NCBI GenBank assembly: GCA_016000085.1
Contig: JAECRT010000001.1
Coordinates: 154,285-218,284, forward strand
Direction: 5' to 3'
Origin: Sphingomonadaceae bacterium
GTDB lineage: Bacteria; Pseudomonadota; Alphaproteobacteria; Sphingomonadales; Sphingomonadaceae
DNA: 64,000 nucleotides
Below are positions 31,752 to 38,661 of this stretch, in pieces (the stretch's first letter is position 1; each line of letters starts with the position of its first letter). Position numbers and translations under genes: made by a program. The notes beneath the pieces are model-generated. The model saw only the letters and a program-made list of their open reading frames with translations, did no database searches and had not been told where the DNA came from.

Positions 31752-34256
31752 TCAAATCGATGGCAGGCTCTGTGCCGCAAAGCCCCAGCCCTTGAGATCT
31801 TTTGCGCGTTTCCACAGCGTTTCCGCATCGTCGATGCTGAAGGGATGGGCATCTTTCATCTCGGCCAGTTCCTCCCAGTCTATCGGCACGGCGACGGGTG
31901 CTCCCGGTCGGGCGCGGGCGGAATAGGGCAGAATGGCGGTGCTGCCACGCTGGTTGCGCAGCCAGTCGATAAATATCCGGTCTTTGCGCTTGGCTTTACT
32001 CATGGTCGCGACGAAACGATCGGGTTCAGCGGCGCTGAGCGCCTGCGCAAAACGGGATGCGAAGTCCTTGTGTGTATTCCAGTCATGGCCCGGCGTCAGT
32101 GGCACGACGACATGCACGCCCTTGCCACCGGAGAGCATGGCGAAGGAGACGAGGCCGAGGTCGCTCAGGTGATCGCGAATATCATCGGCAGCCTGTCGCA
32201 CTTTCGCGAACGCCATAGCTTCATCCGGATCGAGGTCGAAGATCATGCGATCGGGCTTCTCTACGGCATCTGCTCGTGACGCCCAGCCGTGAAACTCTAT
32301 GGTCCCCATCTGCACGCAGGTCAGCAACCCGTCGCTATCCTCAACATAGATATAATCCTCCGATCCGCCGCCTTTCTCGCGGATCGCCACCTGATGAACA
32401 TGGTCGCCAAACGCCCCGCTGTCATGTTTCTGGAAAAAGCATTTCTTTGCGCGGCCCTGTGGGCATCGGACAAGGCTGATCGGCCTGTTCGCGGCGAAGG
32501 GCAACATCAGCGGCCCGATACGGGTATAATAGTCGGCAAGATCGCCTTTGGTCTGGCCGCTGTCGGGGAAAAGAATACGCTCTCTGCTGCTGATCTTCAC
32601 GCTACTTTCGGGGAGCGGCGCAGGTGCGGCCTTCTCCGGTTTTACGGACTTGGCCGGCTTGTCGGTGCGTAATCCAAGGAAGCTGCCATGCCGCACGCGC
32701 CCCTCGCCGGTGAACTCGGCGAAGGCCACTTCCGCAACCAGCATGGGCTTGATCCACTGGACGCTGCGCGCCTCCGCACCGGGAACTTCGGTCGGCATGG
32801 TGTCGATGGCGAGGGGCGCCATCGCAGCGGCGAGGTCGTCCATGGTCGCTGTGTCGAAGCCGGTGCCGACCTTTCCCTTATAGGCCAGCTTGCGTCCCTC
32901 ATGCTGCGCCAACAGCAGCGAGGAGAAAGCGCGGCCCTTGGCTTTGCTCTTTGTCCAGCCGATGACGACGAACTCCTGCCGCCGGGTACATTTCACCTTC
33001 ACCCAGTTGCGCGTGCGATCGCTGCGATAGGGGGCAGCGATGCGCTTGGCGATAATGCCTTCCTGCCCGGCTTCGCATAACGAGCGATAGAGTTTCTCAC
33101 CTGCACCGATAAGATGATCCGCGACATGGATAGGCGGTTGCGCATCGGCAAGCAGCGCTTCCAGTCGTTCCTTCCGCTCGATAGTGGTCAGCGGCTTGAG
33201 GTCCATGCCGTCGAGCGAGAGAAGGTCGAAGGCGAAGAACTGGAAAGGCGTATCGGCCCTTTGCGCGCCATGGCCGCGCTTCAAAACCGCCTGAAGTGCT
33301 GAAAAGCTGGGATTGCCGTCGTCGCCAAAAGCCACGATCTCGCCATCGATGAGCGCGGGCGGCAGGTCGAGCGCGGCAATGGCTTCCACCAGCGGACCGA
33401 ATTTTTCGGTCCAGTCGAGGCCGTTTCGCGTAAATAGATTCACCGTTTGGCCCTTGACTGCGATCATGGCGCGATAGCCGTCATATTTGATTTCGTGCAG
33501 CCACTCATTGCCGGTCGGCACATCGTCCACCAGCGTCGCAAGCTGTGGCTTGACGAACCGCGGCAAAGCGGCGGCGGTGGTCTTGGCTCTGGTTTTGACG
33601 CGCGCATTGTGCGTTTCGGCAGCCTGCATCTTGTCCGCAAAGGCCTTGCCCTTGGCGCCTTTGAGCGATTGCGTGCCACTGATGTCAGCCTTGATCTGCG
33701 CCATCGAACGGTCTGTCAGGACACTGGTGAGCGCGCGTTCGACCAGATCGTCGCTGTTGCTGGCATGACTGTCTTCGATTTTGCGCAGCAACCAGTTCTC
33801 GCGCTTCTCCTCCGGTCGGCCCTTCATGCGTACAAGCAGCCATTCGCCCTTCATCCGCTCACCATGAAGGATGAAGTGGAGGTGCCCATCTTCGAGATCC
33901 TCGACGCTCTTGCCTTCAATCGGCTCCCATGTGCCGCGATCCCACAGCATGACGCTGCCGCCGCCATATTCGCCCTTGGGGATATTCCCCTCAAAACTGC
34001 CATAGTCGATCGGGTGGTCTTCGGTGCGCACTGCCAGCCGCTTGTCGGCCGGATCGAGGCTCGGCCCCCTGGTCACGGCCCAGCTCTTGAGTACGCCGTC
34101 AATCTCCAGCCGAAAGTCCCAATGCAGTCGTGTCGCCGCATGCTTCTGCACAACGAAACTGTTACCCGCGGTTTTCGCGCGCTTGCCCTTGGGTTCCCCC
34201 GTCCGGGTAAAATCGCGCTTGGCATTGTAGCGGGCCAGAGGATCAACCGTGGCCAT
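31752..34256 (-). CDS. ligD: DNA ligase D (phosphoesterase-ligase-polymerase)
   Basis: N-terminal PE domain (FVVQKHAATRLHWDFRLEIDGVLKSWAVTRGPSLDP), ligase motif I KYDGYRAM, C-terminal polymerase (MIFDLDPDEAMAF..LSGGKGVHVVVPL). Confidence 0.96.
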   Translation of the reverse strand: MATVDPLARYNAKRDFTRTGEPKGKRAKTAGNSFVVQKHAATRLHWDFRLEIDGVLKSWAVTRGPSLDPADKRLAVRTEDHPIDYGSFEGNIPKGEYGGGSVMLWDRGTWEPIEGKSVEDLEDGHLHFILHGERMKGEWLLVRMKGRPEEKRENWLLRKIEDSHASNSDDLVERALTSVLTDRSMAQIKADISGTQSLKGAKGKAFADKMQAAETHNARVKTRAKTTAAALPRFVKPQLATLVDDVPTGNEWLHEIKYDGYRAMIAVKGQTVNLFTRNGLDWTEKFGPLVEAIAALDLPPALIDGEIVAFGDDGNPSFSALQAVLKRGHGAQRADTPFQFFAFDLLSLDGMDLKPLTTIERKERLEALLADAQPPIHVADHLIGAGEKLYRSLCEAGQEGIIAKRIAAPYRSDRTRNWVKVKCTRRQEFVVIGWTKSKAKGRAFSSLLLAQHEGRKLAYKGKVGTGFDTATMDDLAAAMAPLAIDTMPTEVPGAEARSVQWIKPMLVAEVAFAEFTGEGRVRHGSFLGLRTDKPAKSVKPEKAAPAPLPESSVKISSRERILFPDSGQTKGDLADYYTRIGPLMLPFAANRPISLVRCPQGRAKKCFFQKHDSGAFGDHVHQVAIREKGGGSEDYIYVEDSDGLLTCVQMGTIEFHGWASRADAVEKPDRMIFDLDPDEAMAFAKVRQAADDIRDHLSDLGLVSFAMLSGGKGVHVVVPLTPGHDWNTHKDFASRFAQALSAAEPDRFVATMSKAKRKDRIFIDWLRNQRGSTAILPYSARARPGAPVAVPIDWEELAEMKDAHPFSIDDAETLWKRAKDLKGWGFAAQSLPSI

Positions 34257-34258
34257 CA

Positions 34259-34396
34259 CTAATTCCTGTTCCCTGAAGCGGCGATGCCGATGACAGCGGC
34301 CAGCCGGATAGGCGTCGTCGTCAGATTGCGAACGTCGCCCTTGAGAATGGGACCATCGATCAAGTGCAAGGGCATGTCAGGATCGCGCAGCATCAT
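34259..34396 (-). CDS. Putative 45-aa small protein between ku and ligD (MMLRDPDMPLHLIDGPILKGDVRNLTTTPIRLAAVIGIAASGNRN)
   Basis: ATG overlaps the ku stop (ATGA, 34393-34396); stop TAG at 34259-34261 lies 2 nt before the ligD ATG at 34256. Below the size cutoff of the supplied ORF track. Confidence 0.45.
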   Translation of the reverse strand: MMLRDPDMPLHLIDGPILKGDVRNLTTTPIRLAAVIGIAASGNRN

Positions 34397-35253
34397 GCGC
34401 TCTTGCGCCTGGGGGCAGCCTTTTTAGGCGTTGCCTTCTTTGCCGCCGGGGGCTTGCGCGCGCCCTCGCCCGCCGATTTCTTGAGCGCCGCCATCAGATC
34501 GATGACGTTGCCTCCCGTGCGACCTGCGGGCTCCTCATCAACATCTTCGATGATGCGCTTGCCCTTGGCCTTTTTCTTCTTGTCGATCAGCCGGTGGAGC
34601 GCGTCGACATAGCGGTCGCGGAACTCTTCCGGTTTGAACGGCGCGGTGCGTTTATCGATGATGCTCGTGGCAAGGTCCAGCATCTCCTCGTCCGCCGTAT
34701 CGTCTGGCAAACCGCGAAAATAGGTTTGGGCTTTCGTGACTTCGTCGGCATAGCGCAGCACTTCGAGCACAAGGCCGCGACCACAGGGTTTGAGCGAAAC
34801 AAGCTGCTCCCGGCCGCGGACGGATAATTGGCCCAGGCCGACCTTCTTCGTCTGGCGCAAAGCGTCACGCAGCACGGCATAGGCTTCCTCCGCCAAGTCA
34901 TCGGCAGGCACCACGAAATAGGGCTTTTCATAATAAAGAACGTCGATCGCGTCAGCGGCCACGAACTGGACCAGATCGAGCGTCTTGCGACTTTCGATTT
35001 TTACGGCCTCAATCTCCTCTTGTTCCAGCAAGACGTAGTTGCCCTTGGACAATTCGAAACCCTTGAGGATCTCATCCCGGTCGACAGGGCCGACGCCAGT
35101 CACGACTTTCTCATAATGGATGGGTTTGCCGGTCGGTTCGTGGATTTGCCGAAAGCTGACGGCTGCACCGGATTTGGTGGCTGGATAGACCTCCACCGGA
35201 ATGGATACGAGCGCCAGTTTGATCTGGCCTTGCCAATATGCGCGTGCGGGCAT
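34393..35253 (-). CDS. ku: Non-homologous end joining protein Ku
   Basis: MPARAYWQGQIKLALVSIPVEVYPATKSGAAVSFRQIHEPTGKPIHYEKVVTGVG. Confidence 0.96.
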   Translation of the reverse strand: MPARAYWQGQIKLALVSIPVEVYPATKSGAAVSFRQIHEPTGKPIHYEKVVTGVGPVDRDEILKGFELSKGNYVLLEQEEIEAVKIESRKTLDLVQFVAADAIDVLYYEKPYFVVPADDLAEEAYAVLRDALRQTKKVGLGQLSVRGREQLVSLKPCGRGLVLEVLRYADEVTKAQTYFRGLPDDTADEEMLDLATSIIDKRTAPFKPEEFRDRYVDALHRLIDKKKKAKGKRIIEDVDEEPAGRTGGNVIDLMAALKKSAGEGARKPPAAKKATPKKAAPRRKSA

Positions 35254-35341
35254 CGAGAACCTCCGCGCTATCAGCGTGTGGAGAAGGCGTTGGTTCCTGC
35301 AACGGCAATATCAATCGCGATTTCGCTGGCGACCATATAGA

Positions 35342-37558
35342 TCAGGCGATCGTCACTATTCGTGCGCTCCCGCCATGTGGCATGGGCTTGACGACGACCT
35401 GATCGCCCATTCGGTCGAATGCTATATCAACCTTGGAAGCCCCGATGCCCAGGCTCCGGATCGTCAGGCTGTGGAGGAAATGCGGCAGTCCTGGCTTGTG
35501 AAATGATATCTGCTCTGCCGCGACATCAAATCGCAGTCCAAGGCTGGACTCGATCAGCGCAAGGGGCGCTGCGGCCGACCAAGCCTGTGGACTACAAGCC
35601 ACCGGATAGAAGGTCGGCCCTTGAGAGCGGCGACGCGGGAAGCCGCAGAACAGTTCGGGCAAGCGCATCATGTCGACATAGGTCGCGGCGGCGAATAGCC
35701 CTTCAAATATCTGGGCTGCCTCACGCTGATAGCCATAGCGGGAAAAGCCCCCCGCAATCAGCGCATTATCATGGGGCCAGATCGAGCCATTATGATAGCT
35801 CATCGGATTATAGAGCTTTTCAGTCGAAGCGATCGTGCGGACGCCCCAACCCGAAAAAGATGCTGGGGCCATCAGCGTGCGAACCACGGCTTCGGCGCGT
35901 TCCGCCCGCGCCAGCCCGGTATAAAGGACATGGCCCGCATTGGATGAGCGCACGCGGCACGGCCTCTTGTCGCCATCCAGCGCAATCACATAGGTGCCTA
36001 GCTCCGCGTCGAAAAAGGCGGTGTCGAAACGGTCACGCAGCCGAGCGGCGCGATCCCGATAATCCGCAGCGCGCCCGTCATCACCCACTGCGCGAAATAG
36101 CGCTTCGGCCGCCTGCCAGGCGCCATAGACATAGGCCTGGACTTCGGCGAGAGCGATCGGACCGCGCGCTATGCTGCCGTCGGCGTGGAAGATCGAATCA
36201 TGACTGTCCTTCCACCCTTGATTTTGCAGACCCTGATCGGTCAACCGACCATATTCGACGAAGCCATCGCCATCACGGTCGCCATGCACATCGATCCACG
36301 AAAGCGCTGCGTCGATATGCGGGAGGATCGTTGTCAGAAAGGCGATGTCGCCGGTGCGTTCGAGATAGGCACCGGCCAGCATCACGAAAAGCGGCGTGGA
36401 ATCGATACTGCCATAATAATGACGGAATGGCACTTCGCCCAATTCCGCCATTTCGCCATGGCGTACCTCATGCAATATCTTGCCTGGTTCGGCATCGGCC
36501 GCCGGGTCAAAGCTGGTTGCCTGATGCGCGGCCAGATATCCCAGCACGCCGCGGCTGATCTCCGGGTCCATCCATAGGGTTTCGAGCGCGGTGATGATGG
36601 CATCTCGGCCGAACACCGTGCTGAACCAAGGGATGCCGGCGTAGGGATAGGGGCCAAATTCGGTATCGGTCGAAAGCATTGAAATGTCGGCGACCGAGCG
36701 ACGCGCAACTTCGTTGAACAGGTCGTTGGACGAATGAAGGGTCGCCCCCCGTTGACGCGCCGCCTGCAACGTCTGCATCGCTTCGCGCAGGGATTTCAGG
36801 AAATGCTTCGGCAGCGGGTCGCTGATTTCAACCCGGCTGCAACAAATACGGGTGAACAGGGCGCAGCGCTGGCCGGGCGGCACCGTCACTTCGAAGCGCG
36901 CGTGGTTGTCAGTCAACTCGGTGGGCATTGGATCGAAATGCAGATGGGTCTGTCGTTCGCGATCGTCCCGCCCGATATAGCCTAGCAGAACGTCTGATGG
37001 GCCGACCTGCGCCTCCCGCATTGTCCCGCGGCGCAAGCGGGTCATGCCGCGAATTTCGAACAGATCGGCAAAGTCGGCGACAAAGCTGAGATCTATGCTG
37101 ATCTGGTGCATTTCAGTGTCGAAATTGCGTACGGTGATCCTTTCGTACAACGCGTCTTTCCAGAGGAAGCGTGTGCGACGCAAATGAATCAAGTCATGCA
37201 ACACAGCGACCCGGCCATCGTCGCCGAAGAAATCGGGGTTGGCGAGATCACAGGTCAGCATCGCATTATCGTCGCGCAGTGCCGAACTCAGCAGGATCGG
37301 CCGCATCCCGTTTACCGTGAGATAAAGGTGAGAAAGATGCCGGGTGTCGCGATGGTACAACCCTTCTGGACTGCCCGGCCCGGAAATGGCGTCGCCGCTA
37401 TGGTCGAACACGGCGAAGCTGTCGCCATGTTTGAGCGTGCGCGGCCTGCGTTCGTGGAGCGAGGCGGTCGCCGGGATGAAAAATTGGGTTTGCGCCTGGG
37501 ACAGCGCCTGCCCCCCAGCGATGCCGGGCGCTTCGGGCTGGGGCTGTATCAGCGTCAT
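35342..37558 (-). CDS. Amylo-alpha-1,6-glucosidase / glycogen-debranching-like protein
   Basis: TLKHGDSFAVFDHSGDAISGPGSPEGLYHRDTRHLSHLYLTVNG; GIPWFSTVFGRDAIITALETLW. Confidence 0.9.
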   Translation of the reverse strand: MTLIQPQPEAPGIAGGQALSQAQTQFFIPATASLHERRPRTLKHGDSFAVFDHSGDAISGPGSPEGLYHRDTRHLSHLYLTVNGMRPILLSSALRDDNAMLTCDLANPDFFGDDGRVAVLHDLIHLRRTRFLWKDALYERITVRNFDTEMHQISIDLSFVADFADLFEIRGMTRLRRGTMREAQVGPSDVLLGYIGRDDRERQTHLHFDPMPTELTDNHARFEVTVPPGQRCALFTRICCSRVEISDPLPKHFLKSLREAMQTLQAARQRGATLHSSNDLFNEVARRSVADISMLSTDTEFGPYPYAGIPWFSTVFGRDAIITALETLWMDPEISRGVLGYLAAHQATSFDPAADAEPGKILHEVRHGEMAELGEVPFRHYYGSIDSTPLFVMLAGAYLERTGDIAFLTTILPHIDAALSWIDVHGDRDGDGFVEYGRLTDQGLQNQGWKDSHDSIFHADGSIARGPIALAEVQAYVYGAWQAAEALFRAVGDDGRAADYRDRAARLRDRFDTAFFDAELGTYVIALDGDKRPCRVRSSNAGHVLYTGLARAERAEAVVRTLMAPASFSGWGVRTIASTEKLYNPMSYHNGSIWPHDNALIAGGFSRYGYQREAAQIFEGLFAAATYVDMMRLPELFCGFPRRRSQGPTFYPVACSPQAWSAAAPLALIESSLGLRFDVAAEQISFHKPGLPHFLHSLTIRSLGIGASKVDIAFDRMGDQVVVKPMPHGGSARIVTIA

Positions 37559-37566
37559 GGAGTCTC

Positions 37567-38661
37567 CTATGCGACGATCTGGAGTTCGGCGTCTTCGCCG
37601 CGCTGGCGGCGCAGCCGGGCCGCGTCCGTACGGGCGCCAGGCAGTTCATGGTACAACGCGACATAGTCTGCCGCCATCCGCTCCGCCGTGAAGCGTGTGT
37701 CAAATGCGCCACGCACCCGGGCGCGGTCGAGATGCGGCAAGGCCGCGACCGCTGCCACGGCTTCATCTTCGCTATCGACGATGAAACCCGATACGCCATG
37801 CTCGATCACTTCAGGCACTGATCCGCATCGGAACGCAATCACAGGCGTCGCACAGGCCATCGCCTCGATCATCACCAGGCCAAAGGGTTCTGGCCAATCA
37901 ATGGGAAACAGCAACGCGCTCGCCTGACCCAGGAATTGCGCCTTTTGCTGTTCATTGATCTCGCCGATATATTCTACATTGGGATAGCGATCGACCAGCG
38001 GGGCGATCTCGCTTTCCCAATAAGCCCGATCCACATTGTCGATCTTGGCCGCGATCTTGAGGTTCAGGCCCGATCGCGCAGCGATGCGGATCGCGCGGTC
38101 TGGCCGCTTCTCGGGCGATATGCGGCCCAGAAACGCGAGATAATTCTCGCCCGCGCCCAATCGCGGCGCCAGCAGGTCGGCAGGTAGGCCATGGTAGATT
38201 GTCCCGCCCCAATTGACCGGTGGCATAGGTAACCGTTGATGGTCGGAAATCGACACCAGACTGTGCTCGGGAAAGGCCCGGTAAAAGGGTGGCAAGTCGG
38301 GCAGATCAAGCCGTCCGTGCAAGGTGGTGACGGTGCGCCCGATAAAATCCTGAGCCATCGGCAAATGGAGCATGTCGATATGAAAGTGCAGCGCATCGAA
38401 TTCATCGGCGCGGCGACGAACCTGCTCCAGCATTATCATATGATAGGGAATGGTATCGACCACAGCCGGATTCAGGCGAAGCGCCATGTCGGTAATCGGC
38501 ACCAGTTCGGCACTGGTCTGCGAATCGCCACTGGCGAACAGGGTGACACTATGACCCTGGCGAACAAGTTCTTCGGTCAGATAGGAAACGATCCGTTCGG
38601 TACCACCATAGAGCCTGGGAGGGACGCTTTCGGCCAATGGGGCAATTTGCGCGATCTTCAT
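37567..38661 (-). CDS. Glycosyltransferase family 4 protein
   Basis: PPRLYGGTERIVSYLTEELVRQGHSVTLFASGDSQT; GRISPEKRPDRAIRIA; EPFGLVMIEAMACATPVIAFRCGSVPEVI. Confidence 0.93.
   Translation of the reverse strand: MKIAQIAPLAESVPPRLYGGTERIVSYLTEELVRQGHSVTLFASGDSQTSAELVPITDMALRLNPAVVDTIPYHMIMLEQVRRRADEFDALHFHIDMLHLPMAQDFIGRTVTTLHGRLDLPDLPPFYRAFPEHSLVSISDHQRLPMPPVNWGGTIYHGLPADLLAPRLGAGENYLAFLGRISPEKRPDRAIRIAARSGLNLKIAAKIDNVDRAYWESEIAPLVDRYPNVEYIGEINEQQKAQFLGQASALLFPIDWPEPFGLVMIEAMACATPVIAFRCGSVPEVIEHGVSGFIVDSEDEAVAAVAALPHLDRARVRGAFDTRFTAERMAADYVALYHELPGARTDAARLRRQRGEDAELQIVA

Follow-up and report, generated by a model that had tools for sequence, protein, structure and literature searches.

The 45-codon open reading frame that fills the gap between ku and ligD in the window (the whole stretch of DNA analysed, 64,000 nucleotides) is almost certainly the eroded remnant of a gene of the MgtC/SapB family (PF02308). 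As judged from comparison with related loci, mgtC was eroded in frame and its remnant quite probably persists as a bridge by which ribosomes would pass from ku to ligD. What appears to be conserved is translational continuity and not a peptide. The frame had been located exactly by the sequence-only reading of this DNA, including its ATGA overlap with the ku stop and its TAG 2 nt from the ligD ATG, and the assignments of ku and ligD made there were confirmed by Pfam. The coordinates of all features are listed in Table 1.

Table 1. Features of the ku-ligD region, numbered from the first nucleotide of the window.
Feature	Position	Strand	Basis
Putative EcfG (general stress) promoter GGAAC-N16-CGCT, 44 nt upstream of the ku ATG	35273..35297	minus	Consensus of PMC7083833, PMC6599016
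ku (Ku70/Ku80 beta-barrel domain, PF02735)	34393..35253	minus	Pfam
45-codon ORF, almost certainly an mgtC remnant and probable bridge from ku stop to ligD start	34259..34396	minus	Sequence, ORF translation, MgtC profile
Island 1: mgtC codons 1-17, MLRDPDMPLHLIDGPIL; intact relatives have MELNPDTPLHLIDGPAL or alike	34343..34393	minus	Alignment, profile
Island 2: mgtC codons 98-119 minus one codon, KGDVRNLTTTPIRLAAVIGIA; relatives have KGEVRNLTTAAHIWLAAVIGIA	34280..34342	minus	Alignment, profile
SD-like AGGA (GGAACAGGAAT) within the remnant, 8-9 nt upstream of the ligD ATG	34262..34272	minus	Sequence
Island 3: final mgtC codons ASGNRN, TAG, then ancestral TGA	34256..34279	minus	Inspection
ligD (phosphoesterase, ligase and primase-polymerase domains)	31752..34256	minus	Pfam

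No family was assigned to the 45-aa product in a Pfam search. Against a profile built from 29 ku-linked MgtC sequences it scored 21.1 bits; 20,000 shuffles gave at most 9.6 bits, and all other stop-to-stop frames of the window at most 6.2 bits. In a search of 94 same-genus genomes, the two halves of the peptide matched longer ORFs of several genomes, collinearly and in one frame. These longer ORFs are located between ku and ligD and belong to MgtC/SapB (PF02308, E about 1e-26). Position and overlaps of the remnant (TGATG with ku, TGATG with ligD) are the same as those of the intact homologues.

Compared with intact genes, 336 nt are missing from the remnant in three losses of 240, 3 and about 93 nt, each of which is in frame. 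Codons 18-97 (240 nt) are absent between islands 1 and 2, the NLTTAAHIW motif has lost one codon, and towards the 3' end about 31 more are gone. About 70% of the mgtC codons were lost in this way; 44 codons and a new TAG are left. Right behind the TAG lies the ancestral in-frame TGA (34258-34256), which overlaps the ligD ATG; intact relatives end with DRKE, followed by a TGA within TGATG. The match of island 3 (NRN versus intact DRKE) is short and was made by inspection. Most MgtC columns with a conservation of at least 95% are gone, and substitutions have altered several of those still present, among them the invariant residues A, H and W in the NLTTAAHIW motif. A functional MgtC requires a complete PF02308 domain with its conserved residues, which the remnant does not have, and its product can no longer be an MgtC. 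For the 35 retained codons, dN against intact genes was 0.15-0.27, versus 0.07-0.15 between intact genes; the raised dN, in a remnant known from one genome, may be taken as suggestive only. Other short ku-ligD gaps contained no mgtC remnants above noise. The 20-aa frame of locus L031 ends with GDRNI and a stop codon, like the MgtC C-terminus, a likeness that is very short and was noticed by eye.

At its upstream end, the remnant begins with an ATG (34396-34394) that forms an ATGA with the stop codon of ku, the TGA at 34395-34393. Another ATG in the same frame (34393-34391), which corresponds to the position of the mgtC start in relatives, forms a TGATG with this stop. At the downstream end, 2 nt separate the TAG (34261-34259) from the ligD ATG (34256-34254), and the ligD frame can be extended upstream to a GTG at 34259. 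The openness of the frame is unremarkable, as 26% of shuffled gaps were open with the ATG given; when the window's own gap was shuffled by dinucleotides, a frame reaching from the ku stop to the start of ligD arose by chance in about 10% of cases.

About 180 sphingomonad ku loci were compared. Intact mgtC was present between ku and ligD at 22 of the 78 GTDB loci scored and again at 22 in a later set of 100 loci from the family. Many species of Sphingobium, Novosphingobium and other Sphingomonadales carry it; the gene has about 157-167 codons there and overlaps or abuts ku on one side and ligD on the other. Public annotation lists Ku, MgtC/SapB and LigD consecutively in Sphingobium yanoikuyae, with overlaps of 1-4 nt, and in Aurantiacibacter atlanticus with nearly the same overlaps. 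As judged from dN/dS, intact mgtC in these relatives is under purifying selection (0.03-0.10 in most close pairs; 0.36 in one pair that is nearly identical and has hardly any changes). MgtC distances track those of Ku plus LigD (Mantel r 0.82, p 1e-4).

On the Ku+LigD tree, the presence or absence of mgtC requires at least 11-12 state changes, even if starred branches alone are counted. The loci nearest to the window are without mgtC and have ku abutting or nearly abutting ligD, with the exception of L031, where a gap of 61 nt separates the two genes. These data are best explained by an old gene that was lost repeatedly; the state count alone cannot separate gain from loss, and loss is favoured because the window carries a remnant. 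Two further damaged copies were found. In genome G074 (L112, G074:C1:597000-605000), mgtC is interrupted by an IS21-like element of 2.4 kb that encodes a transposase and an IstB-like ATPase; at L067, about 40 internal codons were lost in frame.

MgtC is not tied to NHEJ everywhere, because close homologues without a nearby ku exist in the order: those at L144, L145, L147, L148 and L151 are 57-66% identical and have no ku within 1.5 kb. Outside Sphingomonadales, a small sample of 22 class-level hits was inspected, and none had a ku-linked MgtC within about 1.5 kb. Some loci differ in the genes around mgtC. Sphingobium sp. AP50 carries ku-mgtC-ligD twice, and in the second set (L061) the ku homology shifts frame near the 3' end. 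L138 (G089) has mgtC-ligD without an upstream ku, and the preceding gene resembles a CapA-type gene by eye. In the genome of the window, a second Ku that is 63% identical is encoded elsewhere (G000:C48:19346-20182, locus L236).

Bridging frames were then counted at loci without mgtC. A bridge was defined as a frame with its start codon at -4 to +10 of the ku stop and its end at -4 to +10 of the ligD start. Gaps of 40-400 nt were used, and the ligD start was set by homology in both sets. Bridges were present in 18 of 30 gaps (9/16 in the first set and 9/14 at loci fetched afterwards). The first set is exploratory and the second set alone is a replication, because the definition was set after L031, L062 and L068 had been seen. 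Dinucleotide shuffling of whole gaps gave an expectation of 2.05 for the first and 1.71 for the second set, about 4 in total. A harsher null that keeps both 10-nt ends, and tests openness only, gave 5.86 and 5.07 (p 0.02 and 0.002). In ordinary same-strand gaps of the same loci, called by a home-made gene caller that placed 31 of 39 starts exactly on an annotated plasmid stretch, 18 of 126 (14%) were bridged, with 11.3 expected. The difference between ku-ligD and ordinary gaps gave a Fisher p of 9e-7 for all 30 gaps and 1e-4 for the second set alone, in counts of loci that are related by descent; the 30 gaps form 23 sequence clusters, 16 of which contain a bridged member. When the ligD target was shifted 15-21 nt upstream, 1-2 of the 30 gaps were bridged.

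The bridging ORFs are mostly unrelated to each other in sequence. In the gaps of L079, L200, L217, L226 and L243, the bridging translations resemble common sphingomonad intergenic repeats read in frame. Among all mgtC-less loci, the gap is 10 nt or shorter at 81 of 119. An SD-like site precedes ligD at 7 of these 81 loci, by rough estimate about the chance level, and at 17 of the 30 gapped loci. Translational continuity is not strictly required, because 12 of the 30 long gaps are unbridged under the -4 to +10 definition and mgtC is split by the insertion sequence in G074.

These comparisons favour the view that selection maintains uninterrupted translation through ku into ligD, and a bridging role of the remnant in the window is considered fairly likely. 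The ancestral operon would have been ku-mgtC-ligD, with neighbouring genes overlapping or abutting. In the lineage of the window, mgtC would have decayed by in-frame deletions of 240, 3 and about 93 nt, and a new TAG would have arisen just upstream of the old stop. A ribosome finishing ku at TGATG would restart immediately on the remnant, stop at the TAG 2 nt short of the ligD ATG, and then restart on ligD. LigD output would thus be proportional to Ku, with no untranslated gap; the benefit might lie in the ratio of LigD to Ku or in shielding the mRNA from polarity. Under this proposal the frame stays open because it still serves as a bridge. Ribosome re-initiation at the remnant, and selection retaining the bridge for that purpose, are what we infer here. 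In reporters, an intergenic distance of about 20 nt nearly abolishes termination-reinitiation coupling (PMC10666635). The role as a coupling ORF, which had been suggested from the sequence alone, gained support from the in-frame deletions, from the overlapping or abutting mgtC genes of relatives and from the frequency of bridges in ku-ligD gaps versus ordinary gaps.

A more general form of the proposal is held with confidence slightly better than even. In sphingomonads, selection would ensure that ribosomes can travel from ku to ligD without interruption, and any available sequence could serve: overlapping genes, an intact mgtC, its eroded form or unrelated short ORFs, some of them repeat-like. 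Such short frames would be retained for where they start and end, and not for the peptides they encode. MgtC would be a recurrent third gene of the stress-controlled NHEJ operon in Sphingomonadales.

The frame might instead be plain pseudogene debris. In that case mgtC is simply being lost, the frame has no role and is open by chance, and ligD uses its own SD sequence. In the window ligD could indeed start independently, because the SD-like AGGA is present, and the frame could be open by chance, as 26% of the shuffles were. The absence of mgtC from most of the nearest relatives, the repeated state changes on the tree and the insertion sequence within mgtC of another lineage are likewise as expected for a gene under loss. 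The remnant was found in one genome, and three in-frame losses may occur by chance. Debris alone is nevertheless regarded as unlikely, given that all three losses preserve the frame together with the register of the ancestral stop, and that unrelated bridges recur in ku-ligD gaps far above the level in ordinary gaps.

A functional micropeptide working with Ku or LigD, the other role that the sequence-only reading had offered for the frame, is very improbable. The location within the NHEJ operon and the open frame would suit such a peptide, and operon-borne short peptides can act on their neighbours. Homology to MgtC accounts for the sequence, however, and near-invariant MgtC residues are the ones that were deleted or changed. 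The full peptide was found only in the window's own genome among the 94 same-genus genomes; it was absent from the other 93 and from the five nearest loci by tree path. Among relatives the frame is not conserved and the gap varies in length, and bridges elsewhere have no sequence in common. An intact mgtC in the true genome that was collapsed in the draft (89 contigs, 83% complete) is hardly credible either, since three separate in-frame losses together with substitutions in the retained islands are atypical of assembly error and no MgtC above the family cut-off was found elsewhere in this 83% complete assembly.

The ku operon of the window is putatively under EcfG control, as deduced from the promoter motif in Table 1, whose -10 box CGCT is one base off CGTT. 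The ku-ligD operon belongs to the EcfG general stress regulon in Sphingopyxis granuli (PMC7083833), and so does ku in Sphingomonas melonis (PMC6599016); in these two species dependence of expression on EcfG was shown. The motif GGAAC-N15-18-CG(C/T)T was found at 31 of 79 loci, the window included, where shuffles gave 0.3. GGAAC itself was present in the 150 nt upstream of ku at all 79 loci, where shuffles gave 11.7. In mgtC-bearing species, mgtC would by inference ride on the same EcfG-type transcript. Directly upstream of ku and on the same strand (35342-38661, minus), genes for a glycogen-debranching-type enzyme and a glycosyltransferase are located, which may belong to a cluster with stress or carbohydrate functions.

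By this analysis a tempting microprotein claim was replaced by a dated gene decay, and the coupling idea was recast as a comparison with controls. If the proposal is true, it provides a rule for short intergenic frames, some of which would be conserved in topology and not in sequence, and dN/dS tests of the peptide would miss the role of bridging frames. An association of MgtC membrane proteins with the NHEJ operon, in a group of bacteria common in the environment, is also indicated. In the literature searched, a paper linking MgtC with ku-ligD was not found, which is no proof of novelty. MgtC and LigD were each named once in a single paper, MgtC and non-homologous end joining occurred together in two, and MgtC is unmentioned in a 2020 survey of bacterial NHEJ.

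Four known systems were used for comparison. With MgtC/SapB (PF02308) the remnant shares two islands that align in order to ku-linked MgtC proteins, and its intact homologues are members of the family; it lacks codons 18-97 and the greater part of the C-terminal third, and the Pfam domain is therefore absent. In the mgtCBR operon of Salmonella, mgtQ is a short ORF between mgtC and mgtB whose translation promotes the downstream gene (PMC8092293). The likeness lies in a short intergenic ORF of an operon, the translation of which promotes the next gene; however, mgtQ needs specific codons and mRNA structure, whereas the ku-ligD bridges are without common sequence. Termination-reinitiation at ATGA or TGATG (PMC6728339, PMC10666635) is resembled by the TGATG at the end of ku and by the stop 2 nt before the ligD ATG. 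Such coupling is known for adjacent genes, whereas here a non-functional remnant, and elsewhere unrelated short ORFs, would span a long gap. With the sphingomonad ku-ligD operon of the EcfG regulon (PMC7083833, PMC6599016) the window shares adjacent same-strand genes for Ku and a three-domain LigD, and GGAAC-N16-CGCT before ku. Published accounts of that operon name only ku and ligD, whereas in the window and in many relatives the two are separated by a third gene or by what is left of it.
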